Shown here in pieces: positions 249 through 14,543 of a stretch of DNA of 25,046 nucleotides (positions are counted from its first letter, which is position 1; the number at the start of each line of letters is the position of its first letter). Under the pieces are notes generated by a model. That model ran no database searches, had not been told where the DNA came from, and saw only the letters and a program-made list of their open reading frames with translations. This DNA is from a virus, in the IMG/VR virus record IMGVR_UViG_3300035045_000030, positions 1 through 25,046 of that record. One strand, 5' to 3'. Made by a program: the position numbers and the translations under genes.

Positions 249-367
249 CGATAGCTAGAACTAATATGCAAGAACAGATTGAAAAGTCTGGTAAAAAAAA
301 ACAAAAAATCATAACCCAAGAAAAGCGAGGAGACATAACAGTAATAAGAGTTAGATATGGCGACTAG
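245..367 (+). CDS. 40-residue hypothetical protein
   Basis: A short frame beginning MTIARTNMQEQIEKSGKKKQ, started by an ATGA overlap with the upstream stop and ending 11 bases inside the next gene. Both junctions are typical of translationally coupled phage genes, and it fills the only gap between the neighbouring genes. The protein is basic in its middle and ends in a predicted beta-like stretch (ITVIRVRYGD). No domain is recognised. Its reality rests on spacing and overlap rather than on homology. Confidence 0.6.
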   Translation: MTIARTNMQEQIEKSGKKKQKIITQEKRGDITVIRVRYGD

Positions 368-1046
368 TGGAACTTACGGATTTAATTTAGATATTACAGA
401 ACTTATGGAAGAGGCATTTGACCTCTGTGGTTTATCTATGATGTCAGGTGGAGATTACAACACAGCTAAACGTGCATTGGATTTAATCTTTTTAGAATGG
501 CAAAACAAAGGACTCAATCTTTGGAAAGTAGAACAAGGCAGTATAACTTTGACTGCAGGTACGAACTTATATGATGCAGAAAGTACAGCATTAGAAATAG
601 TTGATGCTGTAATCAGAACTGATGCAGGAGATGTATCAGACCAATTTGACCAACGACTTACAAGGATAAGTAGAACTGAATACAATCATCAAGCTAAAAA
701 ACTTTTACAATCTAAGCCAACACAATATTATGTTGATAAAGGATTGACATTGAAGATAGGAGTTTGGGCAACACCTGACTCAAAGCAAACCTATACTTTG
801 ATATATGATTACATAAAAAGAATTGAAGATGCAGGTGGTAATGCAAGTGTAAATCCAGATGTTCCTGCTAGATATTTACCATGTTTAACTTATGCTTTGG
901 CATACAACATAGCTTGTAAGAATGACCAATCACAAAGTCGAATACCTATGATAAAGCAAAGGTATGATGAACTTTGGAAAGAAGTATCAGAAGCAGATAG
1001 AGAAAGAGCTGCTATAAGATTTGTACCTAATACTAATAGTTATTAA
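357..1046 (+). CDS. Tail adaptor / P22 gp4-like head-to-tail connector
   Basis: A 229-residue protein with the layout of phage adaptor proteins that dock under the portal: an N-terminal helical part (MEEAFDLCGLS, then TAKRALDLIFLEWQNKGLNLW, residues about 16-56), a beta-rich middle (LTAGTNLYD, TQYYVDKG, LKIGVWATPD), and a C-terminal helical part (PARYLPCLTYALAYNIACK, then the PMIKQRYDELWKEVSEADRER helix). This helix-beta-helix plan resembles the P22 gp4 tail accessory factor group. The shorter protein at 1822-2463 shares the plan, so the two may form successive rings. Family assignment comes from pattern recognition only. No signal or membrane segment is seen. Confidence 0.65.
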   Translation: MATSGTYGFNLDITELMEEAFDLCGLSMMSGGDYNTAKRALDLIFLEWQNKGLNLWKVEQGSITLTAGTNLYDAESTALEIVDAVIRTDAGDVSDQFDQRLTRISRTEYNHQAKKLLQSKPTQYYVDKGLTLKIGVWATPDSKQTYTLIYDYIKRIEDAGGNASVNPDVPARYLPCLTYALAYNIACKNDQSQSRIPMIKQRYDELWKEVSEADRERAAIRFVPNTNSY

Positions 1047-1048
1047 CC

Positions 1049-1825
1049 ATGGCATATGCAGCAGGTAAAAAAGCAATTGGTATCTGTGATAGATGTGGCT
1101 TTACCTACAAACTTAAAGATTTAAAATACGAAGTACAAGACCAAAAGAAAACAGGCAGTAGAATATGTCCGTCTTGTATAGACCCTGACCAACCTCAATA
1201 TAGAATAGGAGAGGTTGATACTTCAGATAATATAAGTTTGTATAATCCTAGACCTGACACAGGAGAGGCAGCCTCTACAAGTTATTTTGGATTTAATCCA
1301 TTGAACAGTACAGGCATGGTTATAAGAGGAGGAATAGGTTTTAGCACAATAACAACAACTAATGTGCCTAGTCCTAGTCCTAGTCCTAGTCCTTCGCCAA
1401 GTCCTAGTCCTTCACCTAGTCCGGCTAATGTATCTGTTCAATTAACTCAAAACCAATTAACATCATACTTAAATGCTGTTAGTGCCTTAGCAATAACAAA
1501 CTATGTAGTCACAGTACAAGCATATGGTGGAGGCAATCGTTATTACATTGACTCTGTTAGACAGCCTACATTGACTTTAGAAGAAGGTAAGACTTATAGG
1601 TTTGACCAAGGTAATGCTAGTAATGGAACTCACCCATTAAGGTTTTCTACAACTTCTGATGGAACTCATGGAGGAGGAACTGAATATACAACAGGCGTGA
1701 CAACAAATGGAACTCCGGGTAATGCAGGAGCATACACACAAATAACTGTAGCTGTTGGAGCACCTACTCTTTATTATTACTGTACCAATCATAGTGGTAT
1801 GGGAGGACAAGCAAATACACCATGA
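1049..1825 (+). CDS. Zinc-ribbon plus cupredoxin-like virion protein
   Basis: A 258-residue modular protein. Residues 13-43 hold a CxxC (C13, C16) and CxxC (C40, C43) pair, a probable zinc ribbon. Residues 107-125 are an uninterrupted Pro-Ser repeat, a likely extended linker. The C-terminal domain (about 150-258) looks like a cupredoxin: a beta-sandwich with candidate type 1 copper ligands H195 (in GTHPLRFS) and C245, H248, M251 (in YYYCTNHSGMGG), in the usual His-Cys-His-Met order. It sits between two tail-adaptor genes, so a virion component is likely. The start has no visible Shine-Dalgarno and follows the upstream stop by two bases, suggesting translational coupling. Copper binding is inferred from the ligand pattern. 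The domain could also be a decoration that has lost metal. Confidence 0.7.
   Translation: MAYAAGKKAIGICDRCGFTYKLKDLKYEVQDQKKTGSRICPSCIDPDQPQYRIGEVDTSDNISLYNPRPDTGEAASTSYFGFNPLNSTGMVIRGGIGFSTITTTNVPSPSPSPSPSPSPSPSPSPANVSVQLTQNQLTSYLNAVSALAITNYVVTVQAYGGGNRYYIDSVRQPTLTLEEGKTYRFDQGNASNGTHPLRFSTTSDGTHGGGTEYTTGVTTNGTPGNAGAYTQITVAVGAPTLYYYCTNHSGMGGQANTP
1367..1423 (+). repeat. CCTAGT-type hexanucleotide repeat encoding (Pro-Ser)n
   Basis: Tandem hexanucleotides, mostly CCTAGT with a few synonymous variants (CCTTCG, CCAAGT, CCTTCA), encode nine Pro-Ser units plus a final Pro. Silent differences between units show selection on the protein, while the near-identical units leave the tract prone to length change by slippage. 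Each unit is six bases, so expansion or contraction stays in frame and alters only linker length. Confidence 0.9.
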
Positions 1826-2463
1826 CATATAGCGAATTAAAATCTTTAATACAGAATTATTTAGAAAACAACGAAACTTCGTTTGTTTCTAATTTGCCTG
1901 ACATTATTAAACAAGCAGAAGAAAGGATTGTTAAATCTGTAAAACTTCCAAACTTTAGAAAGAATGTCACCGGTCAATTAAGTGCAGGTAATGAATACTT
2001 ATCAACTCCTTCAGACTTTTTAGATAATTTTTCTTTAGCTGTTTTAAATGGACAATCTCAAAACTTTTTATATTTTCGTGATGTAAATTTTATTAGAGAA
2101 GCATATCCAGACAGAACATTAACAGCGACACCACAACATTATGCTCTCTATGATGATGATAGTTTTATTCTTGCACCAACACCTAATTTAAATTTAACAG
2201 TAGAGCTACATTATTTTTACAAACCTGCTTCTATAACAGCAGGAGCAGAGAGTGGAACAACGTGGTTATCAGTCAATGCAACAAATGCTTTGTTATATGG
2301 TTGTTTAATAGAGGGTTATGTGTACATGAAAGGAGCACAAGATATGTTAGCTGAATATGAAAAAAGATATTTTCAAGCTATATCTAGATTGAAAAACTTA
2401 GGGGAAGCAGACAATACTATAGATACCTATGCTGAGGGTATGTTAAGACAGAAGAGGACATAA
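1822..2463 (+). CDS. Second tail adaptor-like structural protein
   Basis: A 213-residue protein overlapping the upstream gene by four bases. It starts with two helices (YSELKSLIQNYLENN and LPDIIKQAEERIVKSV), then a beta-rich middle (GQLSAGNEYLSTPSDFLDN, AVLNGQSQNFLYFRD, TPQHYALYDDDSFILAPTP, VELHYFYKPA) and a C-terminal helical part (NALLYGCLIEGYVYMKG, LAEYEKRYFQAISRLKNL). This is the layout of phage adaptor proteins placed between portal and nozzle, and parallels the protein at 357-1046. The two may be diverged paralogues or distinct ring proteins. The assignment comes from layout and gene order, not from a database match. Confidence 0.65.
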   Translation: MTYSELKSLIQNYLENNETSFVSNLPDIIKQAEERIVKSVKLPNFRKNVTGQLSAGNEYLSTPSDFLDNFSLAVLNGQSQNFLYFRDVNFIREAYPDRTLTATPQHYALYDDDSFILAPTPNLNLTVELHYFYKPASITAGAESGTTWLSVNATNALLYGCLIEGYVYMKGAQDMLAEYEKRYFQAISRLKNLGEADNTIDTYAEGMLRQKRT

Positions 2464-2753
2464 TGTTTACAGTTGATATAGAAACAACTACAGGTACTGT
2501 TGGAGTACAAACAACAGAAAATAAAGGTTTAAGTCCTGAGTATTGGACAGATAGAATTGTTGAAAGGTTAGTTTCAATAAGTGACACAGCAGACCCTATG
2601 GTTAAGGCTCAAGCTGAAGCATTTAGAGACTCTATACAACAAGTTATCCTGCACTATCTAAAACAAGCAGTAGCTAGTGATAGAAGTACAGTTGCAGGTT
2701 TATTAGAAAAACAAGGTCATAAAGATATGGCTGAAATTATAAGGAGGCTGTAA
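2463..2753 (+). CDS. Conserved small hypothetical virion-region protein
   Basis: A 96-residue mostly helical protein. After a short N-terminal beta-like part (MFTVDIETTTGTVGVQTT), it contains long amphipathic helices (EYWTDRIVERLVSISD, MVKAQAEAFRDSIQQVILHYLKQA) and a C-terminal helix (GHKDMAEIIRRL). Both ends are coupled to neighbours by single-base overlaps. No catalytic motif or membrane segment is visible. I have a sense of similar small proteins between adaptor and fibre genes in other marine podoviruses, but no function is known to me. Confidence 0.7.
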   Translation: MFTVDIETTTGTVGVQTTENKGLSPEYWTDRIVERLVSISDTADPMVKAQAEAFRDSIQQVILHYLKQAVASDRSTVAGLLEKQGHKDMAEIIRRL

Positions 2754-3181
2754 TGGCAATTTCTCAAGCAATGTGTACTTCGTTTAAAGTTGAACTTATG
2801 ACAGGTACGCACAATTTTACAAACAGTAGTGGTAATGCTTTTAAGTTAGCTTTGTACACAAGCTCGGCTACACTTGGTGCAGCTACAACTGCTTTTTCAG
2901 CAACTAATGAAGTTTCTGGTACAGGTTATACTTCTGGTGGAGGAGCATTAACAAATGTGACACCAACCTCAAGTGGAACAACTGCATTTACTGATTTTGC
3001 TGATTTAACTTTTAGTAGTTCTACAATAACTGCTAATGGTGCTTTAATTTATAACAGCACTAATAGTAATAAAGCTGTATGTGTATTAGCTTTTGGTGGA
3101 GATAAAAGTTCTACTAATGGTGACTTTACAATACAATTTCCAACACCTGACGCTTCAAACGCAATTATTAGAATAGCTTAA
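2753..3181 (+). CDS. Small beta-rich virion protein
   Basis: A 142-residue protein rich in Thr, Ser, Gly and Ala with few charged residues, typical of beta-sandwich phage surface proteins. It begins MAISQAMCTSFKVELMTGTH and contains KLALYTSSATLG, EVSGTGYTSGGG and ALIYNSTNSNKAVCVLAFGG. It lies directly before the first tail fibre and shares TAATG-type coupling on both sides. A role as a decoration protein or a fibre-attachment protein fits composition and position, but the exact function is unknown. Confidence 0.7.
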   Translation: MAISQAMCTSFKVELMTGTHNFTNSSGNAFKLALYTSSATLGAATTAFSATNEVSGTGYTSGGGALTNVTPTSSGTTAFTDFADLTFSSSTITANGALIYNSTNSNKAVCVLAFGGDKSSTNGDFTIQFPTPDASNAIIRIA

Positions 3182-4428
3182 TGGCATTTGTTCTTAACGA
3201 TAGAGTTAAAGAAACAACAACAACTACAGGAACAGGCACAGTAAACTTAGCAGGTGCTGAAACAGGTTTCGAGTCATTTGTTGCAGGTATTGGTAATTCC
3301 AATACAACTTACTATGCTATCGTTCATCAAAGTTTAGACGAGTTTGAAGTTGGTTTAGGAACTATAACAGATGCAACTCCAGACACTTTAGCAAGGACTA
3401 CAGTTATTAGTAGTTCTAATTCTGACTCTGCAGTCAATTTTTCTGCAGGAACTAAAGATGTATTTTGTACACTACCTGCAAGTAAAGCTGTCGTAGAAGA
3501 TGCTAATAATAATATAACAACTCCAAATGGAGATAATGGTTTAGGACTAGGAACAGATACAGTACCACATGGAGGAGTAGGTGCAGCTAAACTTGCTATA
3601 GAAGGGTCTGACTCAAACTTTGGTGCAGGACCTCATGTGCAGTTTACAACAACAAGTGATGACCACCCATTAATGCAAATTCTTCCTTATGCACATGATA
3701 ATGTATCTATAAGTTTTGATGCTTACCATAATGGTACTAATTGGATAAGTTCAGATGCAGGAAGTAATTTTCAAATTTATAAGTTAAACGATGCTTTAAA
3801 TTTTTATTATAAAAGTGGAGTAGCTGCAGGTAGTACAGCAGCACCTTGGAGCTCAGGAGCTTATTTATCTGCAACAAGTGGTTATTGGGGGATTGGTACA
3901 GGTTTAGCCATGAACGCAAATACAGACATTGTTTTTACAGACGGAACTTGGACAGGAGAAAAAGCTAGAAAAATACAAGCACACTCAGGTCATATATATT
4001 ATCAAAGTGCTTCTCATATTTTTAGAAATGCAAGTGGTACTAATAATTTTCAAATAGATGGTACAAATTGTATTGCTACAGGAAACATAACAGCTTATGG
4101 CTCAATCTCAGATGAAAGGTTAAAAGAAAATATAGAAGTTATAGAAAATCCTATTGACAAAATAAAAGACCTAAAAGGAGTCACTTTTAACTACAAGAAA
4201 GATGGCTCAAAAAGTACAGGGCTGATAGCTCAAGATTTAGAAAAAGTTTTACCAGAAGCTGTATATACATCTAAAACTATAGGTGATGAAATAAATGAAG
4301 AAGAGTCTGAAGAACATCTAGCTATTCGTTATGGCAACACAGTAGGTTTATTGGTAGAAGCTATAAAAGAACAACAAGAACAAATAGAAACTCTTACAGC
4401 TAAAGTAAAAGAATTAGAGGATAAGTAA
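3181..4428 (+). CDS. Tail fibre with S74 intramolecular chaperone domain
   Basis: A 415-residue fibre protein. The N-terminal part (about 1-105, starting MAFVLNDRVKETTTTTG) resembles the virion-attachment part of other phage fibres. A variable beta-rich shaft follows. The C-terminus (about 309-415) is an S74-type chaperone, with the SDERLKEN motif at residues 310-317, then LKGVTFNYKKDG and GLIAQDLEKVLPEAV, then a terminal coiled coil (LLVEAIKEQQEQIETLTAKVKELEDK region). In this family the domain trimerises the fibre and cleaves itself off using a Ser-Lys dyad. Here those would be S310 and K315, so cleavage before S310 is expected. A second S74 fibre lies at 8205-9572. Confidence 0.88.
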   Translation: MAFVLNDRVKETTTTTGTGTVNLAGAETGFESFVAGIGNSNTTYYAIVHQSLDEFEVGLGTITDATPDTLARTTVISSSNSDSAVNFSAGTKDVFCTLPASKAVVEDANNNITTPNGDNGLGLGTDTVPHGGVGAAKLAIEGSDSNFGAGPHVQFTTTSDDHPLMQILPYAHDNVSISFDAYHNGTNWISSDAGSNFQIYKLNDALNFYYKSGVAAGSTAAPWSSGAYLSATSGYWGIGTGLAMNANTDIVFTDGTWTGEKARKIQAHSGHIYYQSASHIFRNASGTNNFQIDGTNCIATGNITAYGSISDERLKENIEVIENPIDKIKDLKGVTFNYKKDGSKSTGLIAQDLEKVLPEAVYTSKTIGDEINEEESEEHLAIRYGNTVGLLVEAIKEQQEQIETLTAKVKELEDK

Positions 4429-5213
4429 TGGCGTTTCCTTCAAGTTCAGTTTCAATGTCTCAGATGAATACAGAAAGAGGTTTGGGTGCTACTACAACTG
4501 TTTCTTTAAATAATACTGAAGTTAAACAAATGGCTTATCAGTATACACCCGGAACTACATCTGTAAATTTTGCACAATGGAGAAATAAAACCGGATTTAG
4601 TAATCAACTGACTTTTACTATAGGATATGAACTGCAAACTACAGCAGCAGCACCGGCATCACCTGCTGCTGCTAATTATTATTGGGGATATGGATATGTA
4701 GGTGTAGCACCATTTCCGGGCACAGGAAACGATGCGAGTGAAAACGCAATGGGACGTATGCCTCTAATGTATCCGGGTGGGTTTGCTACAGGATTATATA
4801 ATGTCGCAGGAGGCACAAGAACTTCTAATCCATTATTGAGCCTATATGGTATATATTGTAGGTCAAACTCACCAACCGGAAGTGGCTCAGGACCATGGGC
4901 ACTTTCTGATTTAACAATGAGATTTCGACACACCCATCTTCCTGCAGGAGGAACATATCCTGCAACCTTTACTAATGCAGGTTGGACATCTATAAACATA
5001 TCTAATCCTGCATATAATGTGACTTACAATAGGTCATCATCAACATTTTCTAGTTATATGGGTCCTTTTCAATTTGGTGGAAGTGCTAGTGCTACTTTTT
5101 CTTGGTCAGGTCAACCTGCATGGGCACCAACTAATAGATATCCTTTTGGTCCAACACCTAGTGGAAATTTTCCTTCTACCGGCAGTACAACTAACACTTT
5201 AACAATTACTTAA
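4428..5213 (+). CDS. Fibre-tip or receptor-binding-like protein, copy A
   Basis: A 261-residue protein rich in Gly, Ser, Thr, Pro and aromatic residues, with very few charged residues after the first 60. It opens MAFPSSSVSMSQMNTERG, a start shared in outline (M-x-x-PSS, then a Met/Glu-containing helix and a conserved MAxxxW/Y region) with the protein at 9572-10255. Both follow an S74 fibre with one-base coupling, so this is probably a fibre tip, adhesin or second fibre subunit. The YYWGYGYVG and FQFGGSASATFSW stretches suggest a beta-structured exposed surface. Receptor specificity cannot be read from the sequence. Confidence 0.6.
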   Translation: MAFPSSSVSMSQMNTERGLGATTTVSLNNTEVKQMAYQYTPGTTSVNFAQWRNKTGFSNQLTFTIGYELQTTAAAPASPAAANYYWGYGYVGVAPFPGTGNDASENAMGRMPLMYPGGFATGLYNVAGGTRTSNPLLSLYGIYCRSNSPTGSGSGPWALSDLTMRFRHTHLPAGGTYPATFTNAGWTSINISNPAYNVTYNRSSSTFSSYMGPFQFGGSASATFSWSGQPAWAPTNRYPFGPTPSGNFPSTGSTTNTLTIT

Positions 5214-5234
5214 TGATATTGTTATAATAACAAA
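5199..5234 (+). promoter_or_regulatory. Candidate sigma70-type promoter with overlapping palindrome
   Basis: TTAACA (5199-5204, five of six to the -35 consensus), an 18-base spacer and a perfect TATAAT (5223-5228) lie before the accessory genes. The -10 sits inside a 7-bp inverted repeat with one central base, TTGTTATAATAACAA (5219-5233), which could also be an operator. Seven bases after the -10 is the A of the next ATG at 5235, and no Shine-Dalgarno precedes that ATG, so transcription from here would give a leaderless message. In AT-rich DNA such matches can occur by chance. Confidence 0.4.
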
Positions 5235-6143
5235 ATGGTAGCAAGTATAAGGAAAGATGTAGATGAATTTGGAAAAGAATTTAATCGTTTAAGGTTTGAA
5301 GGCTCATATAATCATAAAGACATAAATTATGTTATTGAATGGAGTAAACAAGACTCAGCTTTACTTGTTGATGAATTTGGAAACTTTGATAAAGAAGGAG
5401 CAGAAACTTTAGAACGTTGGCATAAAGAAGCTGAAGCGTATAGTCATGCTATAGGAAGAAATGACTCTTTTTTATACAGAACAGATATATATGATGAAGT
5501 ATATGTTAATCAAAAACTTGTAAGAAAAGATTGGAATATTGCAACAGGAGAGGGTCCGGCTCTTTTAGAAAAAGTAAAAGCTGCGTTTCCCAAAGAAGAA
5601 GAAATATGGGAGTCTGGCGTTTTAAATGTTATAGGAAACTACTATGCTCCTGATGGTGCACCTTTAAGACCTCCATACAAAAATACTAATTCTATTAGTA
5701 TGTATCATGTAGAAAGAGAGCCTAGTCCTTATCTTTTACAAAGTTATGGTATAGACCCTAGCACTCATACATGGTGTCCTTGGTATGGACTAAAATACGA
5801 TTTAGAAACCAAAGAACGTATGTTAAAGGTTGTTTATTATGGGATAAAACAAACTGAAAACATTCTTAAACCTGAAGGTTTGCCTGAAGATATAAACCCT
5901 TATTGGTATTTTTTTGCTGATATTTACCATGAAGATGGCAGTAAGTCTCAAGAAAGAGATGTATTTTTATTTGCAACTGAAGAAATATTTCGTCCTTGGT
6001 GTGAAAAATATGGACATACTTTTCCTATACCTGATGAAAAACTAAAAGATGATATATGGTGTTATGGAATAGTTTATGACTGTGAAACGCTAGAAGTAAA
6101 ACAAGTTAAAGGTTATATAAGATATAGAATAGATGGAGCGTAA
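5235..6143 (+). CDS. Unknown protein, first gene of accessory oxygenase module
   Basis: A 302-residue soluble protein unlike its fibre neighbours: charged and rich in Trp, Tyr, Glu and Lys, with no signal peptide or membrane segment. It contains segments such as SYNHKDINYVIEWSKQDSALLVD, THTWCPWYGLKYD and DINPYWYFFADIYHEDG. I do not recognise the family. The composition suggests an enzyme or a cytoplasmic factor rather than a virion protein. It overlaps the next gene, a 2-oxoglutarate oxygenase, by 11 bases, so the two are probably translated together and may share a pathway. The ATG has no Shine-Dalgarno, but an in-frame TGA at 5214 leaves no better upstream start. Confidence 0.7.
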   Translation: MVASIRKDVDEFGKEFNRLRFEGSYNHKDINYVIEWSKQDSALLVDEFGNFDKEGAETLERWHKEAEAYSHAIGRNDSFLYRTDIYDEVYVNQKLVRKDWNIATGEGPALLEKVKAAFPKEEEIWESGVLNVIGNYYAPDGAPLRPPYKNTNSISMYHVEREPSPYLLQSYGIDPSTHTWCPWYGLKYDLETKERMLKVVYYGIKQTENILKPEGLPEDINPYWYFFADIYHEDGSKSQERDVFLFATEEIFRPWCEKYGHTFPIPDEKLKDDIWCYGIVYDCETLEVKQVKGYIRYRIDGA

Positions 6144-6846
6144 TTTTTTAAAAGCAGTAGAAAAAGCTGATAATAAGTTTTTCGATACTATAGAAAAAGA
6201 AAAAATTAATTTTTTACAAAACAGATTTCAAGAGCAAGGATTTGTTTTAGTTAAGAATTTTTTATCTAAAGAAGTTGTAGAATTAGTTAACGAAAGCTAT
6301 GAAATACATTACGCTAAAGCAGAATATATAGAAAAATATTTTGAAAATACAATACCAACTAGCTTAACAAAACCTAATGTAGCTTCTGCTCTTTATGGAA
6401 AGTTTGGAAAGATAGATAAAAAAATGGGATTTGCTAATAGAGATTTGCATAGTTATGCCTATAGTGTTGGAGAGGCTTTGTTAAAAAAGAAAAAAGATTT
6501 TATAGAAAAGATTTCACAACAAGAGTTAGATTATACAAATTCTTTTTGTAGAAAATATACTGAAGGAAGTAGTTTAGGAAAACATAAAGACAGACCTGCA
6601 CTTCAAGTTTCTGCTACTATTTGTCTGGGTGGAGAAAAGTGGGAAATATTTATAAAAGATAAGTCAGATAATACACATAGCATAACTATGAGTGCAGGTG
6701 ACGCTATAGTTTATTCAGGCACAGAGCTTGAACATTGGAGAGAAAAATTAGATAAAGGATATGTTAATATGTGCTTTATACATTATTGTAAAAAAGGCTC
6801 AGAATATAAATTAGACGGAAGAGAATTTATAGGACAGCCAAAATAA
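6133..6846 (+). CDS. 2-oxoglutarate/Fe(II)-dependent oxygenase A
   Basis: A 237-residue protein whose C-terminal half is a double-stranded beta-helix oxygenase. The iron-binding triad is visible as H151-x-D153 (GKHKDRPALQVSATICLGG) and H201 (ELEHWREKLDKG), with the AGDAIVYSG strand between. This HKDRP/HWRE pattern occurs in a group of oxygenases common in marine phages. Such enzymes use O2 and 2-oxoglutarate to hydroxylate or demethylate a substrate, releasing succinate and CO2. No arginine at the usual co-substrate position is obvious, so that contact may be made differently. The N-terminal 100 residues are helical. The substrate is unknown. Protein, tRNA or nucleotide targets are all possible. 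Confidence 0.85.
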   Translation: MERNFLKAVEKADNKFFDTIEKEKINFLQNRFQEQGFVLVKNFLSKEVVELVNESYEIHYAKAEYIEKYFENTIPTSLTKPNVASALYGKFGKIDKKMGFANRDLHSYAYSVGEALLKKKKDFIEKISQQELDYTNSFCRKYTEGSSLGKHKDRPALQVSATICLGGEKWEIFIKDKSDNTHSITMSAGDAIVYSGTELEHWREKLDKGYVNMCFIHYCKKGSEYKLDGREFIGQPK

Positions 6847-6858
6847 ACGGGGTTAAAT

Positions 6859-7458
6859 ATGTTTGGGAAAGTAGGAATGTTTTATGGAGAGCAAGGTTTG
6901 CCTCGTGATTTATGTGACGAATTAAATGAAGAAATAATAAATAAAGTTCCATCTACAGATGGAGAAATAGGGTCAGGAACAGATGGAATAAAAGAAACTA
7001 ACACTAGAAATTCAACTATACGTTGGGTCACTCCAGAAGTTCCACAGCTTTGGGATAAAATAATAAATATAATAATGCCTTATGTTGTGGGCTGTAATAG
7101 AACAAATTTTGGTATAGACATTTCTGGTGGTTGTAATGAGATACAACATACAGAATATCAAGAAGGACAGCATTACATATGGCATATGGATACAGATTTT
7201 GCACCTTTAGAAGTTGTAAAAAAACGTATGGCTTTCGATAGAAAGTTAAGTGTCACAATACAACTTTCGCATGAGGACCATTATGACGGAGGAGATTTAG
7301 AAATTTTTGAAAGAGAGTTAAATTTACCTAAGCATTTATTAAGACAGCAAGGTACTGTAGTTATATTTCCCTCTTTTTTACAACATCGTGTGACACCTGT
7401 CACTTCAGGAACAAGACATTCATTGGTGACTTGGATAGAAGGTACGCCATGGAGATAA
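6859..7458 (+). CDS. 2-oxoglutarate/Fe(II)-dependent oxygenase B
   Basis: A 199-residue oxygenase of the prolyl-4-hydroxylase/PiuC-like type. It has the full ligand set: H109-x-D111 (YIWHMDTDF), H176 (FLQHRVTPV) and R186 (SGTRHSLVTW), ten residues after the distal His as expected for 2-oxoglutarate binding. It is nearly all catalytic domain, and the segments YDGGDLEIF and GTVVIFPSFLQHRV are characteristic strands. It is not closely similar to the oxygenase just upstream, so the pair is not a simple tandem duplication. A GGGG-containing stretch lies before the ATG. The substrate is not evident. The pairing suggests two steps of one modification. Confidence 0.88.
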   Translation: MFGKVGMFYGEQGLPRDLCDELNEEIINKVPSTDGEIGSGTDGIKETNTRNSTIRWVTPEVPQLWDKIINIIMPYVVGCNRTNFGIDISGGCNEIQHTEYQEGQHYIWHMDTDFAPLEVVKKRMAFDRKLSVTIQLSHEDHYDGGDLEIFERELNLPKHLLRQQGTVVIFPSFLQHRVTPVTSGTRHSLVTWIEGTPWR

Positions 7459-7464
7459 TAAAAT

Positions 7465-8184
7465 ATGTTTGGAATAACAGCTTTTGCTCAATCACCTTTT
7501 GCAGGTTTGGGCAGTATTACAGGAAACGCTTCTTTTGTACCGGTAGGCTTTGAACTAACCGGCTCTATTAATTCTGTCACACCTGTTATTACAGTAAATG
7601 TACCTGTAGTAAGTGGTACAATTTTTGCAGATGTTTTATTGGGAACAGTCACAATAAGAGGAGATGCAAGACTTCATGAGTTTATTGTTGGTGTTCAAGG
7701 TGTTTCAGCTTTAGGAGCAATACAAAATACAGCAGGTGCTGTTGTTAATGTCACAGGTGTAGTTGGACTTTCTGCTGTTGGAAATGCTGTAGTATTTGGT
7801 GGCTCTGTGCAAGGTGTATCTTCATCAGGAAAAACTTTAGCTCTTGGAGAAGAAACAATTATTGGAGACTGTAATATCACAGCAGCACAAGTAGGAGATG
7901 CAACAGCTACAACTGCACTAGGCTCTATAAGTTTACAAACTGTTAATGTATTACCTATAACAGGTTTAAGCAGTTCTGCTTCTGTAGGTACAGTATTAGT
8001 TATTCCTGAATGTAAGGTTAGTGTTTCGGCAGTAAGCACAAGAGGCAGTTTAGGTATTATAAATATTTGGAGTCTGGTTAATGATGACCAAACACCAAAC
8101 TATACACCCGTTAATGATAGTCAATCTGCAGGATATTCTGAAGTTAATACAACTCAAAATCCTGATTGGACTGACGTAGCATAA
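7465..8184 (+). CDS. Beta-repeat virion or fibre-associated protein
   Basis: A 239-residue low-charge protein rich in Val, Gly, Ser, Thr and Ala. Residues about 60-200 contain degenerate beta repeats marked by V-x-G-V-S-A-x-G type turns (GVQGVSALG, GVVGLSAVG, VQGVSSSG, ITGLSSSASVG, VSAVSTRGSLG). Residues 206-238 form three tandem 11-residue repeats with Asn first, Gln fourth, an aromatic eighth and Val last. These features fit a fibrous surface protein. It starts six bases after oxygenase B and precedes the second S74 fibre, so it may be a substrate of the oxygenases or part of a fibre. Both ideas are inference. Confidence 0.65.
   Translation: MFGITAFAQSPFAGLGSITGNASFVPVGFELTGSINSVTPVITVNVPVVSGTIFADVLLGTVTIRGDARLHEFIVGVQGVSALGAIQNTAGAVVNVTGVVGLSAVGNAVVFGGSVQGVSSSGKTLALGEETIIGDCNITAAQVGDATATTALGSISLQTVNVLPITGLSSSASVGTVLVIPECKVSVSAVSTRGSLGIINIWSLVNDDQTPNYTPVNDSQSAGYSEVNTTQNPDWTDVA
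8080..8178 (+). repeat. Three tandem 33-base (11-residue) repeats
   Basis: Units NDDQTPNYTPV, NDSQSAGYSEV and NTTQNPDWTDV follow each other without spacing at the C-terminus of the 7465-8184 gene. Asn 1, Gln 4, Tyr/Trp 8 and Val 11 are fixed in all three. The DNA has diverged more than the protein, indicating selection on the repeat residues. Confidence 0.75.
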
Positions 8185-8204: not shown

Positions 8205-9572
8205 ATGGCAAGTACATATGATAACGATTTGCGTTTAAATGAAATGGCAACCGGTGACCAAAGTGGTACATGGGGTGACACTACTAATTTAAATTTACGT
8301 TTGATAGCAGAAGCTTTTTCATATCAAACAGACGCAACATTTACATCAGACGCAAATACACAAGTGACCATAGCAAATGGAGCTTCTGACAAATATAGAG
8401 GTATGTATATCAAAGTCACATCTACAGTTAATGGTGGACTTACTGCGTCTAAAGATTTAGAGGTCTTACCTAGAACTGTATCTAAAGTTTTATTTGTAGA
8501 AAACTCAACAACCGGTGGTCAATCTATAGTTGTTAAACAAGGCTCTGGAGCTTCTGTGACTGTTCCTAATGGCAGTTGCAAATTATTATTTTTAGATGGA
8601 GCAGGTACAGGTGCTTCTGTTTATGATGGCTTAAATAATTTAGCTTTGAGTGGTGACCTAACTATAGAAGGTGACGATTTAAAAATGGGTACTAATACTA
8701 GTGGTCATATGTTAATTGCAGATGGCACTAACTTTAATCCTGTAGCTATGAGTGGAGACGCAACCATAGCAGGGAATGGAGCACTAACTATAGCTAACGA
8801 TGCAGTAGAACAAGCTATGATTGCAGATGATGCAGTTGGTGCAGACCAATTAGCTTCAGACGCAGTTGTCAATGCTAGTGTAGATGCTAATGCTGCCATT
8901 GCTTTTAGCAAGATGGCAAACCTAACTATTAATAGAGCTTTGGTTTCAGATGGTAGTGGAGATGTCACACCGGCAACTACAACGTCTACAGAGATAGGTT
9001 ATGTAAATGGAGTCACGTCAGCAATACAAACACAATTAAATTCAAAGCTAGGCAATACTGTTAATGCTTGGCAAACTTCGAGCGAGGGCGACCAAAGAAT
9101 TTATTTTGCAAATAGTGGCGAGACTATTTTAAAAGCAGATGGAAGTCATCTATTTAGAAATGCTTCTGATACAGTAGTTGTAGAATTAACTTCTGCAGGT
9201 ATAGGCAGATTTGATAATGATGTTGTTGCTTACTATTCATCAGATGAAAAGTTAAAAGAAAATATAAAAGATATACAAAGTCCATTAGAAAGATTGAGCA
9301 AAATCAGAGGTGTGACTTTTGATTGGAATGATAAACAAGAAGCATATGAAGGAAGTGATATAGGTGTCATAGCACAAGAAGTAGCCAAACAATTTCCTGA
9401 GCTTACTACTACTCGTTCCGATGGATATATGGCAGTAAAGTATGAAAAACTTACTGCTGTATTAATTGCAGCAGTTAATGAGTTAGCTGATGAAGTTCGT
9501 GGTAATAGAGAATTGATACGTGAAATGGAAAATATTTTAATTGCAAATAAAACACCGGAGCAAACTGACTAA
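8205..9572 (+). CDS. Second tail fibre with S74 intramolecular chaperone domain
   Basis: A 455-residue fibre. A good Shine-Dalgarno (AGAGGAA) lies nine bases before the ATG. The N-terminal part (MASTYDNDLRLNEMATG, then SGTWGDTTNLNLRLI) is a different attachment type from the 3181-4428 fibre. The middle contains Ala/Asp-rich shaft repeats (ADDAVGADQLASDAVV). The C-terminus has the S74 chaperone with SDEKLKEN (catalytic-type S346 and K351), IRGVTFDWND and GVIAQEVAKQFPEL, followed by the usual terminal helix. As in the first fibre, trimerisation and self-cleavage before S346 are expected. Two distinct S74 fibres may give the particle two adhesins. Confidence 0.88.
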   Translation: MASTYDNDLRLNEMATGDQSGTWGDTTNLNLRLIAEAFSYQTDATFTSDANTQVTIANGASDKYRGMYIKVTSTVNGGLTASKDLEVLPRTVSKVLFVENSTTGGQSIVVKQGSGASVTVPNGSCKLLFLDGAGTGASVYDGLNNLALSGDLTIEGDDLKMGTNTSGHMLIADGTNFNPVAMSGDATIAGNGALTIANDAVEQAMIADDAVGADQLASDAVVNASVDANAAIAFSKMANLTINRALVSDGSGDVTPATTTSTEIGYVNGVTSAIQTQLNSKLGNTVNAWQTSSEGDQRIYFANSGETILKADGSHLFRNASDTVVVELTSAGIGRFDNDVVAYYSSDEKLKENIKDIQSPLERLSKIRGVTFDWNDKQEAYEGSDIGVIAQEVAKQFPELTTTRSDGYMAVKYEKLTAVLIAAVNELADEVRGNRELIREMENILIANKTPEQTD

Positions 9573-10255
9573 TGCCATTACCTAGTTCCGGACAAATAAC
9601 TCTAAATGAAATGCACGTTGAGGCAAGTGGTACCTCAGGCACACAATCAAATATAAACTCTGCACCAATACGTTCTTTGATAAATAAATCAGCTAGTGTG
9701 CAAATGGCTTTTACTGAATGGTATGGAGCTTCTTCTGCACCTCCAGCTGCAATTCCTGCAACAGGAACAACTACACAAACGCATACAATGGTTTATGTTC
9801 CTTTTGGTGGCTATTATTCCAATACAGATGGTTATGTAAATGCACCTGTCACTATCTCTCCTGCAGGTATACCTAACTGGTATAATTATCCTGCTTTAGT
9901 ACCTTATGGAAATAGCAACTATGGCTCTTTATCTCCTGCTACATATACCGGTTGGTCAGGAGCTTATTTTTCTTCATCTATTTCATATCAAAAAATAACG
10001 GGTATTTCTCCTACAGCTCGTTTAGAAGTCACATTTAATCAAAGAAGAGCTAATAGTAATTGGAATACTATGAGACATACTAAAACAATTGGTGGACAAC
10101 TAACAATTCCAAGAGCAACTATGTTTTATTCAACATATTGGGTGCCGGGTCAACCTTCTACAACAGGTCAAACAAAATATGTGTATTATGCACCACCTTC
10201 TTGGAACACAGTTTATTATCAAAATAGTCAAACAAATTACGTACATTGGACATAG
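9572..10255 (+). CDS. Fibre-tip or receptor-binding-like protein, copy B
   Basis: A 227-residue protein rich in Tyr, Trp, Pro, Ser and Thr. It opens MPLPSSGQITLNEMHVE and then has SASVQMAFTEWYGAS. This N-terminal plan matches the protein at 4428-5213, and each sits directly behind an S74 fibre, so they look like paralogues in two duplicated fibre cassettes. The remainder (YVPFGGYYSNTDGYVNAP, YWVPGQPST, YYAPPSWNTVYYQ) differs, as expected for surfaces with different receptor specificity. The start is TAATG-coupled to the fibre gene. The function is inferred from position and composition. Confidence 0.6.
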   Translation: MPLPSSGQITLNEMHVEASGTSGTQSNINSAPIRSLINKSASVQMAFTEWYGASSAPPAAIPATGTTTQTHTMVYVPFGGYYSNTDGYVNAPVTISPAGIPNWYNYPALVPYGNSNYGSLSPATYTGWSGAYFSSSISYQKITGISPTARLEVTFNQRRANSNWNTMRHTKTIGGQLTIPRATMFYSTYWVPGQPSTTGQTKYVYYAPPSWNTVYYQNSQTNYVHWT

Positions 10256-11185: not shown

Positions 11186-11535
11186 TGGACGATATAGTAA
11201 GACTAATAACTGAGTTAGGATTTCCTGTAGCTGCAGCTTTAGGTCTTGGTATATTTGTTTGGAAGTTAATAAATAGAATTATAGATGGCATGGAGTCTAA
11301 GATTGATGTAGTTGATGACAAAGTAAATGAACAACTAAAAGCTATGGAAGGTAGATTGCAACAGAAACTAGACTCTCAACAAAGCATTTTGGTATCACTT
11401 ATAGATAGAGTAAGAAGTGTAGACAATGAGATAATAAGACAAGATACATTATTAAAAACAATGTTAGGTGTGCCACAATTAGTACAAAAAGATAAAATAG
11501 CAAAGGCAGATAGAGATGACCAAAGAAAAGATTAA
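11185..11535 (+). CDS. Candidate holin with membrane helix and coiled coil
   Basis: A 116-residue protein with one N-terminal membrane helix (residues about 12-30, FPVAAALGLGIFVWKLI) followed by a long cytoplasmic amphipathic coiled coil (about 36-85) and a charged tail (DKIAKADRDDQRKD). One N-terminal helix plus a charged coil is the layout of BhlA/UviB-type small holins and of related proteins in marine phage lysis regions. Its stop lies 20 bases inside csgF. The separation from the lysozyme by the curli genes is unusual. It could instead be a membrane anchor for another late protein. Confidence 0.5.
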   Translation: MDDIVRLITELGFPVAAALGLGIFVWKLINRIIDGMESKIDVVDDKVNEQLKAMEGRLQQKLDSQQSILVSLIDRVRSVDNEIIRQDTLLKTMLGVPQLVQKDKIAKADRDDQRKD

Positions 11536-12058
11536 AAGAAAAAGAGGTAGACCTTCTAAAGCAGAAGTAGCTGCAAGAAAAAAAGCAGAGCAAAAAGACT
11601 TAGCTCTAATTATTTGTATGTATGTTGGATTATTTATAGTTATAGCTTTTTGTGTAAATCTAGCATTAGCAGATGAAATGAATTTTAAATTTAAGTCTCC
11701 AAGTTTTTCAGGTGTAAATACATCTCAACACTATTTAACAATAGAAAATCAAGAACACACTAGATACAAAACATTACAAGAAGAAGTAGAAGCTTTAATA
11801 GAACAAGCAGAAAGAGATGAACAAAATACTACAACTGCAAGATTTATAAGAAACTTTGAAACAAGAGTTTATGCAAAATTATCTCAACAATTAGTTGATA
11901 AATTATTCGGAGAAGAAGCACAAGATAACGGCACAATAGAACTTGAGGGGAACACTATTGACTATAAGGTTGATGAAACCAATATAACTTTGACAGTCAC
12001 CAATGAAGCTAATAAACAAACAGTTATTACTTTCCCTCTCAATAGTTTTACTTTCTAG
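11516..12058 (+). CDS. csgF: Curli assembly factor CsgF homologue with long N-terminal extension
   Basis: A 180-residue protein. Residues 53-180 match the CsgF plan: after a signal-peptidase-type site (NLALA/DE), MNFKFKSPSFSG corresponds to the conserved N-terminal strand that inserts into the CsgG pore in E. coli. A helix (ETRVYAKLSQQLVDKLFG) and terminal beta strands (TIDYKVDETNITLTV, NKQTVITFPLNSF) follow. CsgF acts at the cell surface, capping CsgG and coupling export to fibre assembly. Unlike cellular CsgF, the signal helix (about 29-52) is preceded by 28 residues that are strongly basic and contain KRKRGRPSK, an AT-hook-like motif. The gene overlaps csgG by 56 bases. M35 is a possible later start but lacks a ribosome site. 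Confidence 0.88.
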   Translation: MTKEKIKRKRGRPSKAEVAARKKAEQKDLALIICMYVGLFIVIAFCVNLALADEMNFKFKSPSFSGVNTSQHYLTIENQEHTRYKTLQEEVEALIEQAERDEQNTTTARFIRNFETRVYAKLSQQLVDKLFGEEAQDNGTIELEGNTIDYKVDETNITLTVTNEANKQTVITFPLNSFTF

Positions 12059-12806
12059 CTGTACTGTCTTTTATGATGATGCTTTACAAAATCAAAAGAT
12101 TTCAAAGTATGCTGAAAGAGTTGGAGTTATTAATAAAGAAATAGAAACTATTTTACCGGCAGTAAAAAAGCCTATAGTAGCTATATACCCAACATCTTTT
12201 ACAGACCAAACAGGACAAAGAAGAAGTAATAGTAATTTTGCTACGTTTAGCACAGCAGTCACACAAGCACCATATGTGCTTTTGATAAAGACTTTAAAAG
12301 CTGTATCTAACGGAGAGTTTTTTGAAGTTGTAGAAAGAATAGGTTTAGATAATCTTACTAAAGAAAGACAACTAATAAGAAGTACTAGAGAAACATTTGA
12401 TGACCCACAAAAATTAAAACCACTAGTTTTTGCAGGTTTGATTATGGAAGGAGCTATAGTCGGCTATGAAACCAATACAAGAAGTGGAGGTCGTGGAGCT
12501 AGACTTTTAGGCATAGGTTTATCAAAACAATATAGACAAGATACTGTCACATTATCTTTGAGAACTGTATCTGTTTTGACCGGCAGAGTTCTTATAGAAG
12601 TCACAGTATCTAAAACGATATTAAGTGTTGGTACTAATCAAGACGCTTTTAGATTTATAGAAAATAAAACCGAATTGATTGAAATAGAAAATGGTGATGT
12701 AGAAAATGAAAGCGTGACGATAGCAGTTCAGGCAGCTATTGAAGAGGCTATCCTTGCTACAATCAAAAAAGGAATTCAAAAACAATATTGGAGCTATAAA
12801 GAATGA
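12003..12806 (+). CDS. csgG: Curli secretion channel lipoprotein CsgG homologue
   Basis: A 267-residue protein (E. coli CsgG is 277) with a lipoprotein signal, lipobox L17-S-S-C20 followed by Thr, predicting the outer membrane. Conserved parts in order: KPIVAIYPTSFTDQTGQ (57-72), FSTAVTQAPYVLLIKTL (82-98), FFEVVERIGLDNLTKERQLI, IMEGAIVGYETNTRSGGRGAR, the transmembrane hairpin and LSLRTVSVLTGRVLIEVTVSKTIL, and a C-terminal helix region. CsgG forms a ring-shaped export pore for unfolded curlin. Of the E. coli constriction residues, the Phe of FSTAV is kept, but the preceding Asn is Thr and the Tyr is not evident, so the pore lining probably differs. No CsgE homologue is in the window. The start codes the signal peptide inside the csgF reading frame. 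Confidence 0.94.
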   Translation: MKLINKQLLLSLSIVLLSSCTVFYDDALQNQKISKYAERVGVINKEIETILPAVKKPIVAIYPTSFTDQTGQRRSNSNFATFSTAVTQAPYVLLIKTLKAVSNGEFFEVVERIGLDNLTKERQLIRSTRETFDDPQKLKPLVFAGLIMEGAIVGYETNTRSGGRGARLLGIGLSKQYRQDTVTLSLRTVSVLTGRVLIEVTVSKTILSVGTNQDAFRFIENKTELIEIENGDVENESVTIAVQAAIEEAILATIKKGIQKQYWSYKE

Positions 12807-13510
12807 GAAAGTATTTACCAGTAATTATTTTTATAAGTATAAATATTTTTGCTACAGACAATGAAATATCTATAGACCAAGCAGGAGCTACGGCAAATAT
12901 AGATATTGAGCAGCTTGGGTCTGGAAACTTAATCGGTGGAGCTTCTGCTGTATCAGGTACTATGACACCATTAGACTTAGATGGTGCAACAATGACACTT
13001 GATGTAAACCAATTAGGAAATTCAAATATATTTAAAGGCGATATATATGCTGATAGTTATACAGGTTTTTTTGAATTTACCGGAGACTCTAATACATTTG
13101 CTATACAGACAGACCCTAATAATACTTATGGTGCAGACAGTTCTAATGTAAATGTACAAGTATCAGGGTCATCAAATGCTTTTACTTTTAGCCAAGCAAC
13201 TAATGCACAAGCTTCTACATTAGATTTAGATTGGACAATAAACGGCTCTAACAATTCAATTACATCTGCAATTGACCAAGACTTAGCTACAAACTATATG
13301 AACATAGATGGGTCTGATAATACTGTGACATTTGATGGTGACGGCTATCAGGGAGCATATTTCCATTTGACTCATACAGGAGGGTCAAGAACAATAAATG
13401 TCACACAACAAAGCACACTTGATAATGATTGGCTCAAGATTACTTCTAACGGCTCTAATGGTACTTTCTGTGTCAATCAAAACGACCAAGGCACAAGCAC
13501 AAGCTGTTGA
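12803..13510 (+). CDS. Secreted curlin-repeat-like protein, candidate amyloid substrate
   Basis: A 235-residue protein with a signal peptide (about 1-17) and then Asn/Gln/Ser/Gly-rich sequence. Curlin-type units are visible: Q26-x-G28 and Q37-x-G39-x-x-N42 (IDIEQLGSGNLIGG), VNQLGNSNIFKG, FTGDSNTFAIQ, VSGSSNAFTFSQ, INGSNNSITSAIDQ and IDGSDNTVTFDG. The family consensus is S-x5-Q-x-G-x2-N-x-A-x3-Q. Here the Gly-x-x-Asn turn is kept better than the Gln positions. Two Cys near the C-terminus (FCVNQ and TSC) could be disulphide-linked. A GGAG lies nine bases before the ATG, which overlaps the csgG stop. Export through the adjacent CsgG and assembly as an amyloid is inferred. Confidence 0.72.
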   Translation: MRKYLPVIIFISINIFATDNEISIDQAGATANIDIEQLGSGNLIGGASAVSGTMTPLDLDGATMTLDVNQLGNSNIFKGDIYADSYTGFFEFTGDSNTFAIQTDPNNTYGADSSNVNVQVSGSSNAFTFSQATNAQASTLDLDWTINGSNNSITSAIDQDLATNYMNIDGSDNTVTFDGDGYQGAYFHLTHTGGSRTINVTQQSTLDNDWLKITSNGSNGTFCVNQNDQGTSTSC

Positions 13511-14543
13511 TATAGGAACTGTAGAACAAGTATCAGGATATGCCAGAATAGAACGTGACAAAGGTTATGATGTAATTACAGACTTTGGCATACAGTCTTA
13601 CGACAAAGCACAAACAGAAGCAGGTCGTATGGGTATAAGATTTATAGACGACACGAGTATTCGGATTACTGAACACTCAATGGTTGTTATAGATGAATTT
13701 GTATTTGACCCAAACCCAGATAATTCTAGATTAGCTTTAAATTTTGTAAAAGGTACAGCAAGATTTACTTCAAGTCTTACAAATAAAATATCTAAAAAAA
13801 ATATAAAGCTAACAACAAATAGTGCAGTTGTAGGTATTAGAGGCACAGACTTTACAATAACAGTAGAGCCAGATACAGGTAAGAGTTTGTTTATATTATT
13901 GCCTGACGAAGATGGCAACCCATCAGGTGAGATATCTGTGACAACAGCAATGGGTACAGTAATACTTAATAAACCTTATCAAGCAACAACAACCAGAGTA
14001 TTTGAAGCTCCACCAAGTAATCCGGTTATCTTAGATTTATCTTTAGATTTTATAAACAATATGTTGTTGATTGCTCCACCTGAAGAAGAAAAAGATATAG
14101 ATGAAAATACTGAAAGCAAACAACAAGACAACTTGTTAGATTTTGATGAATTAGATGTAGATTATTTAGCTGATGACTCATTAGATAAAGATGAACTTGA
14201 GTTTACAGAATTAGACTATGACGCTTTGAATGTAAATTTTTTAGAGGATTTGTTAGATATAATTACTGAGCTAGATGTTTTAGATAATGAAGAAGAATTA
14301 ACTCAAACAATTTCAGCAGTAAATATAGAGGGGACTACAATAGGACAAGACCAGAAAACACAAATAACTACAATAGTTTCTGGGCAGGAAGTTAAATTAA
14401 CAAGGTCAGTAGCGTCATCTACTTCTATACAAATAGATAGTGGAGAAAGCTACTTAGTAGTTTTAGAACAAGATGGTGTCACTAATCAAGTTAAAGTAAA
14501 TGGTGGTGGCTCTTCTGTAATAGTAATAAGGCAAAGTCAATGA
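13398..14543 (+). CDS. Secreted FecR-domain-like protein with acidic repeats and curlin-like C-terminus
   Basis: A 381-residue protein with an N-terminal signal peptide ending near KAQA (residue 34). Residues about 39-205 resemble a FecR domain: VEQVSGYARIERD, MGIRFIDDTSIRI, LALNFVKGTARFTS, TNSAVVGIRGTDFTI and VTTAMGTVIL. Residues 229-300 are very acidic and hold a repeated 12-residue pattern (F249-D260 and Y274-L285). The last 27 residues (EQDGVTNQVKVNGGGSSVIV and RQSQ) look like a curlin repeat. The start lies inside the curlin gene, a 113-base overlap. AGGAGGG at 13378-13384 supports it though 13 bases away. ATG 13425 is an alternative. FecR-like folds bind ligands in the periplasm, and here the context suggests a partner of the curlin. 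Confidence 0.72.
   Translation: MSHNKAHLIMIGSRLLLTALMVLSVSIKTTKAQAQAVDIGTVEQVSGYARIERDKGYDVITDFGIQSYDKAQTEAGRMGIRFIDDTSIRITEHSMVVIDEFVFDPNPDNSRLALNFVKGTARFTSSLTNKISKKNIKLTTNSAVVGIRGTDFTITVEPDTGKSLFILLPDEDGNPSGEISVTTAMGTVILNKPYQATTTRVFEAPPSNPVILDLSLDFINNMLLIAPPEEEKDIDENTESKQQDNLLDFDELDVDYLADDSLDKDELEFTELDYDALNVNFLEDLLDIITELDVLDNEEELTQTISAVNIEGTTIGQDQKTQITTIVSGQEVKLTRSVASSTSIQIDSGESYLVVLEQDGVTNQVKVNGGGSSVIVIRQSQ

Follow-up and report, generated by a model that had tools for sequence, protein, structure and literature searches.

What are two oxygenases of different types and a gene of no assigned family doing among the tail fibre genes of a phage? The question is raised by a 25,046-base virus record, IMGVR_UViG_3300035045_000030 (the window, to the whole of which all coordinates refer), in which three forward open reading frames (ORFs), intact and in order, make up a module of P0001 and the 2-oxoglutarate (2OG)-Fe(II) oxygenases A and B (Table 1). 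Its three genes recur jointly in all seven of the other IMG/VR contigs that carry P0001, which answers the co-occurrence check proposed in the initial annotation, and its gene order is unchanged in every contig where it is readable (one has P0001 cut at the contig end and another has oxygenase A split across contig ends). Purifying selection acts on each of the three genes, with ratios of nonsynonymous to synonymous divergence (dN/dS) of 0.16-0.27 in two comparisons; given the conserved order and this selection, the grouping is not due to chance. P0001 and A share 11 nt (6133-6143), consistent with coupled translation, and A and B are spaced by 12 nt. Structure prediction suggests an answer: the core of P0001 very probably adopts the ABBA barrel fold of prenyltransferases, and the module is tentatively read here, at somewhat less than even confidence, as a fibre-locus protein-modification cassette that combines prenyl transfer with hydroxylation.

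P0001 has no significant match in Pfam, NCBIfam, PHROG or PDB sequences, in keeping with the unknown family first assigned to it. Nothing was returned by tblastn against INPHARED, from plasmids or by two scans of genome contigs, and IMG/VR scans with P0001 or with an alignment of its own clade returned that clade alone. A first AlphaFold run, on the full-length protein with five near-identical rows, gave a model (predicted local distance difference test, pLDDT, 52) that was too weak to be relied on by itself; it served as a lead to viral homologues, whose relationship sequence comparison then confirmed. In BFVD three viral proteins, all uncharacterised, resembled this model, one of them from Agrobacterium phage Atu_ph07. 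A profile search of the whole Atu_ph07 record with alignment A1 returned nothing; the homologue emerged from an ORF scan, in which it outscored every other ORF of the genome against the profile (hmmsearch E 0.012; blastp E 0.001), and lies at 111065-111769 (YP_009611815, exactly the length of the BFVD entry). A relative in Sinorhizobium phage Phosso is 40.5% identical to the Atu_ph07 protein, and a profile of these two jumbo-phage proteins recovers P0001 among 209 ORFs (E 2.3e-6; hhalign E 5.7e-6). The alignment with the jumbo-phage homologues led to three freshwater-type contigs (L067, L068 and L069) at 32-33% identity, and a fourth (L073) is 73% identical to that group; their habitat is presumably freshwater, judging by the contig origins. 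All distant relatives lack the first ~75 residues, and the N-terminal 77 residues of P0001 have no phage match. The core family (residues ~76-302) thus spans three phage lineages, 22-33% identical to one another, and all 7 of the 7 rows of its alignment share 14 polar or charged residues: E88, Y148, N150, Y171, K187, Y188, D189, T192, K198, D242, E268, E287, K292 and Y294.

A second AlphaFold run, on the core with eight rows from the three lineages, gave a model with pLDDT 74.7 and a predicted template modelling (TM) score of 0.74, in which strand pairs have helices between them. When the core model was compared with the PDB by Foldseek, the first 35 of 35 rows were ABBA prenyltransferases, with AmbP1 the best match (E 8e-4; query-normalised TM-score 0.44-0.52 in the first AmbP1 rows) and PagF, PatF, FamD1, LimF, KgpF and EpzP following. 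In VIA-align all 50 of 50 rows were again ABBA prenyltransferases (Z 9.7 to 7.8), the top row aligning 209 of 227 residues at Z 9.7 with a root-mean-square deviation of 4.0, and the full-length model likewise gave this superfamily in its first 14/14 Foldseek and 50/50 VIA rows. The structure-based search that the initial annotation had recommended therefore leads to the ABBA prenyltransferases (AmbP1/AmbP3/FamD1, PatF/PagF/LimF/KgpF, TleC, EpzP and NphB (Orf2)), whose fold is predicted over the whole P0001 core. PatF, PagF, LimF and KgpF are the cyanobactin enzymes, and of these PagF and PatF, which modify peptides, are among the closest to P0001 by Foldseek. P0001 had been proposed to supply the substrate of the oxygenases; it need not do so, because the predicted fold points to an enzyme. 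ABBA enzymes carry basic residues for the diphosphate, a tyrosine shield and a glutamate on strand 1. In the P0001 model the invariant residues E88, K187, K198, K292 and Y294 lie on or beside predicted strands, and we take the strand lysines and the first-strand glutamate to recall the ABBA diphosphate site and catalytic glutamate, a likeness of position rather than of superposed structures.

Oxygenase A is a member of PHROG 2954 by profile (E 1.7e-32), a family of pelagiphages and cyanophages that is labelled ferrochelatase. From its sequence we conclude that it is a 2OG-Fe(II) oxygenase, because it has an HxD...H triad and because its family occurs fused with a B-type domain. The triad (H151-x-D153...H201) is kept in 12/12 aligned homologues, and H151, D153, R154, W170, H201, R203 and H217 are invariant across these 12 divergent members, which include HTVC033P, Mosig, HTVC023P, HTVC008M, P-RSM4, Sf-CH11 and P-SSM7. 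The fusion is a 362-residue 'ferrochelatase' of Synechococcus phage ACG-2014f, made up of an A domain (i-E 1e-41) and a B-type domain (2.4e-19). Oxygenase A itself scores below the curated cut-off of PF13532 (22.6 vs 31.2 bits), just one of the 12 members matches a 2OG-FeII_Oxy profile at E 0.01, and the best matches of the A-family profile in the PDB, two TET-like dioxygenase sequences, are non-significant (E 0.15 and 0.23). No ferrochelatase profile matches A up to E 1, or the 12 members up to E 0.01. Since all 12 homologues retain the iron site, the label of PHROG 2954 is almost certainly wrong. This bears on earlier surveys: in the available text of PMC11561400 phrog2954 is taken as ferrochelatase in a seasonal survey, and in that of PMC9599517 each phage 'ferrochelatase' adjoins an oxygenase, a pair that would become two oxygenases if A is one. 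The genes treated there as auxiliary 'ferrochelatases' would then represent a second class of 2OG oxygenase, and such surveys would read differently. Separately, two genes labelled 'DNA endonuclease V' lie within oxygenase arrays of 023Pt_psg01 (L029:11357-11839) and Mosig (L010:6675-7187). The former holds an HxD motif, neither matches Pfam, PHROG 2297 ('DNA endonuclease') also matches oxygenase B weakly, and these genes are perhaps another mislabelled oxygenase.

Oxygenase B scores above the curated cut-off of PF13640 (59.2 vs 27 bits) and is grouped with PHROG 61, '2OG-Fe(II) oxygenase'; A and B thus belong to different families. Its catalytic domain matches those of PKHD-type hydroxylases (PiuC, Sbal_3634, YbiX) and PF13640 prolyl-4-hydroxylase-like oxygenases, with alignments to Sbal_3634 and PiuC at E 1.6e-6 and weaker, but it lies far below the NCBIfam cut-off of the PKHD equivalog (67.7 vs 143 bits). 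The triad H109-x-D111...H176 is present in 9/10 aligned rows, the tenth being a wrong paralogue (L074:10677-11306, row 9 of alignment A7) that was left in the counts. The first description of two oxygenases of different types with intact iron ligands is thereby borne out.

The pairing of A with B extends beyond the window. In nine of 11 other phage records a B-type gene is found no more than 2 kb from A, and in one (ACG-2014f) the two are fused, while the stretch examined in the remaining record, P-SSM7, has no B-type gene; these records were partly picked for apparent adjacency, so the count should not be taken as an unbiased rate. In eight of ten annotated records the A/B-like genes are surrounded by tail, fibre, neck or structural genes, the exceptions being ACG-2014f and P-SSM7. 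HTVC023P-type pelagiphages likewise have an oxygenase/'ferrochelatase' pair in the tail region, for which, unlike the window module, the available text of PMC9599517 names no prenyltransferase-fold partner. No P0001 homologue was found in the scanned stretches of HTVC023P and 023Pt_psg01, nor by the INPHARED search. Two proteins encoded ahead of the oxygenases there, HTVC023P gp64 and its counterpart in 023Pt_psg01, were considered as P0001 relatives and rejected because they scored weakly with the P0001 profile (E 0.04 and 0.25). EGLN3-like 2OG oxygenases are common across marine phages, according to the part of PMC12774648 (Phold) consulted. Many marine phage 2OG oxygenases have unknown targets, and a partner such as P0001 reduces the problem to a chemistry that can be tested, namely virion proteins bearing prenyl and hydroxyl groups.

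Table 1. Features of the module and its surroundings in the window.
Feature	Positions	Strand	Description	Basis
P0001	5235-6143	+	302 residues: N-terminal extension (1-75) and core (76-302)	
P0001 core domain	5460-6140	+	227 residues, input of the better model	
Oxygenase A	6133-6846	+	237 residues; putative 2OG-Fe(II) oxygenase, PHROG 2954 family (labelled 'ferrochelatase')	
Oxygenase B	6859-7458	+	199 residues; PF13640 prolyl-4-hydroxylase/PKHD-like 2OG-Fe(II) oxygenase	
Tail fibre with C-terminal Peptidase_S74 chaperone	3181-4428	+	Candidate substrate	Pfam/PHROG scans
Tyr/Trp-rich (8.4%) variable protein	4428-5213	+	Encoded just before P0001; candidate substrate and candidate fibre tip	
Perfect 15-nt palindrome	5219-5233	none	Within the 21-nt gap before P0001	
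Repetitive protein	7465-8184	+	Directly downstream of oxygenase B	Pfam, PHROG: no match
Second S74 tail fibre gene	8205-9572	+	Downstream of the module	Pfam/PHROG scans

The fibre-region location given in the initial annotation holds for the module as a whole, which is flanked by the two S74 fibre genes, and finds parallels in the records above and in the freshwater P0001 cluster. The protein encoded directly upstream of P0001 is 59% and 79% identical to two relatives, vs 93-100% for the genes at 357-3181. Between the window and contig L005 the module genes have synonymous divergence (dS) of 0.43-1.13, vs 0.01-0.31 in other genes compared, and two fibre genes upstream of the module are also divergent (dS 0.53 and 0.88); between the window and L001 the values (P0001 0.18, A 0.10, B 0.37) are within the range of the neighbours. 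A single recombination block was considered for the module and rejected, as it fits the window/L005 pair only and fails for window/L001. The upstream protein at 4428-5213 has a counterpart at 9572-10255: both are rich in Tyr, Trp and Pro, variable and directly behind an S74 fibre gene, they begin alike (MAFPSSS and MPLPSSG), and their dN/dS of 0.42-0.57 is among the highest in the window. Their sequences make it likely that they are paralogous tip proteins.

Other candidate modifying enzymes appear near the P0001 homologue in all three lineages, with differing chemistry to judge from the gene sequences. In L067, L068 and L069 the end of a Sulfotransfer_2 gene (profile tested on L067: 29.1 bits, cut-off 22) overlaps the homologue, which is preceded by a collagen-like fibre (PF01391, 1.2e-34; frame-shifted in L069) and a 158-residue protein and is followed by a fibre-like protein and glycosyltransferases; L073 begins at the 158-residue gene and has the identical order from there onward. 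The sulfotransferase-family gene at L067:7303-7968 shares its fibre cluster with collagen-like fibres and a pair made up of an FkbM-methyltransferase and a glycosyltransferase. In Atu_ph07 and Phosso several genes labelled radical S-adenosylmethionine (SAM) lie within ~12 kb of the homologue; of five compared with Pfam, two score above the 29.5-bit Radical_SAM cut-off and three below (29.3, 27.7 and 22.9). In these two records (L059, Atu_ph07; L060, Phosso) at least three radical-SAM genes cluster with small unknown genes near the homologue and could be a peptide-modification system.

The phage itself, a marine virus, is by sequence akin to HTVC023P-type pelagiphages: the protein at 357-1046, named tail adaptor in several of its matching records, is closest to Pelagibacter phage HTVC023P (40% identity, among 11 matching phage records). 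Further downstream, 11516-14543 encodes CsgF (57 bits), CsgG (153 bits) and FecR (37 bits), each exceeding its Pfam cut-off; between CsgG and FecR lies a 235-residue, repeat-rich protein that matches nothing in Pfam. A curli-type cluster is described in HTVC023P-type pelagiphages in the available text of PMC9599517, and these two likenesses make a SAR11 host likely.

Taken together, the data suggest a late-region modification cassette in which P0001 would act as a compact ABBA-fold, prenyltransferase-like enzyme. The donor of the isoprenyl group would be host dimethylallyl diphosphate or geranyl diphosphate, and the acceptor a nucleophilic side chain, aromatic or otherwise, on one of the phage's proteins; the most probable of these is the Tyr/Trp-rich tip or fibre protein whose gene lies immediately upstream of P0001. 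Afterwards or in parallel, oxygenases A and B would hydroxylate the same protein, drawing on host 2OG, Fe(II) and O2, and the fibres, chemically altered before they serve in host recognition, would have a changed affinity for the outer membrane. That a virion fibre or tip is the substrate is a possibility to which we give rather less than even weight. Judged by title and abstract, none of the papers listed in the literature searches describes a phage-encoded ABBA prenyltransferase; the texts consulted were PMC9599517, PMC9602691, PMC9004378, PMC10436341, PMC12774648 and PMC11561400.

How firmly does P0001 count as a prenyltransferase? On the models we lean slightly towards an active enzyme, and several findings weigh on the other side. 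No known prenyltransferase profile matches P0001 (Pfam and NCBIfam up to E 1), four core members compared with Pfam up to E 10 give no prenyltransferase family, and PDB sequence searches give no prenyltransferase for P0001 or its core; as no curated profile matches, P0001 is not filed in any named ABBA family and is said here just to fold like, or work like, its members. The TM-scores, normalised to the query, reach a moderate 0.52 at most, the core model falls below pLDDT 50 at its residues 54-70, the core has ~225 residues vs at least 280 in the matched solved chains, and a common fold is no proof of prenyl transfer activity. P0001 further differs from the known ABBA enzymes in being phage-encoded and, in the window clade, in its extra N-terminal 75 residues. 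An artefact of thin alignments, with P0001 of some other fold, would account for these moderate scores from shallow inputs of five and eight rows, and Z of 7 to 8 is possible without true relation; we nonetheless consider it very unlikely, as two runs with different inputs agree and one superfamily fills the lists down to rank 35 (Foldseek) and 50 (VIA), with 209/227 residues covered at the highest Z. Somewhat easier to entertain, though still unlikely, is that P0001 has ceased to be a prenyltransferase while keeping the ABBA fold, and serves as a binding or assembly protein (a fibre chaperone or adaptor) beside working oxygenases. Its compact size and its lack of detectable sequence similarity to known prenyltransferases would suit such a role. 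The 14 invariant polar or charged residues across lineages so far diverged, the placing of lysines on strands and of a glutamate on strand 1 in the predicted model, and the absence of any known fibre assembly protein of ABBA fold from the Foldseek match lists argue against it.

If P0001 is active, its acceptor might instead be a small molecule, the three genes making or altering a prenylated metabolite as an auxiliary metabolic pathway. Hapalindole/ambiguine and fumitremorgin pathways do pair prenyltransferase-fold enzymes with oxygenases, and AmbP1, AmbP3 and FamD1, the top relatives of P0001 by Foldseek, have small indoles as substrates according to their entry titles. Phage 2OG oxygenases are also regarded as metabolic genes in the available texts of PMC9602691 and PMC9599517. 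This account is improbable given that no scaffold-making enzyme gene is present among the window proteins scanned, that the module lies inside a fibre operon and has diverged together with fibre genes in one of the two contig pairs compared, and that the freshwater homologues are likewise in a fibre cluster. A host surface or curli protein as target is a distant prospect: the curli region, 4 kb downstream, has its members above Pfam cut-offs and shares its orientation with the module, and its secreted fibre could be what is modified, but the protein at 12803-13510 has just 3.8% Tyr/Trp and stays at 98-100% identity among relatives, in contrast to the variable module. Modification of virion fibres, the preferred account, has its own difficulties. 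The Tyr/Trp-rich upstream protein is not unique, the product of 9572-10255 being richer (11.9%), and the jumbo-phage homologues are not shown beside fibre genes. The P-SSM7 homologue of A adjoins dam and clamp-loader genes, the fused A+B of ACG-2014f is near NAD synthetase and ribonucleotide reductase genes, and many B-type genes of T4-like cyanophages adjoin a UvsW-type helicase. The initial annotation had held that occurrence of the module in unrelated positions, with nucleotide-modification genes, would count against a role at fibres, and this applies in part: from these contexts the oxygenases alone are not tied to fibres, while the fibre setting of the full module stands. No DNA-hypermodification enzyme was matched in a partial scan of ten proteins, from other regions, of the 58-kb relative behind L001 (terminase, portal, primase/helicase, annealing protein, exonuclease, HNH endonuclease, ATPase and three without known function). 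A still broader proposal, which we regard as doubtful, is that at least three unrelated phage lineages prenylate their own virion proteins through a minimal ABBA-fold enzyme, not recognised before, together with lineage-specific modifiers: 2OG oxygenases in pelagiphages, a sulfotransferase in freshwater phages and radical-SAM enzymes in rhizobial jumbo phages. If true, the tailoring logic of modified ribosomal peptides would be applied to receptor-binding fibres.

Smaller features of the region concern its DNA. P0001 has no clear Shine-Dalgarno sequence, repeats in the module region look like chance and a promoter scan was at chance level (13 found vs 16.4 expected). The palindrome in the gap before P0001 holds an extended -10-like TATAAT; it is exact in the window and in 6/6 other contigs spanning the gap, though the upstream gene diverges, and it has one exact copy in the window, with the count at three mismatches at chance level. 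At 1049-1825, a structural protein contains a long Pro-Ser repeat linker whose length differs among relatives.

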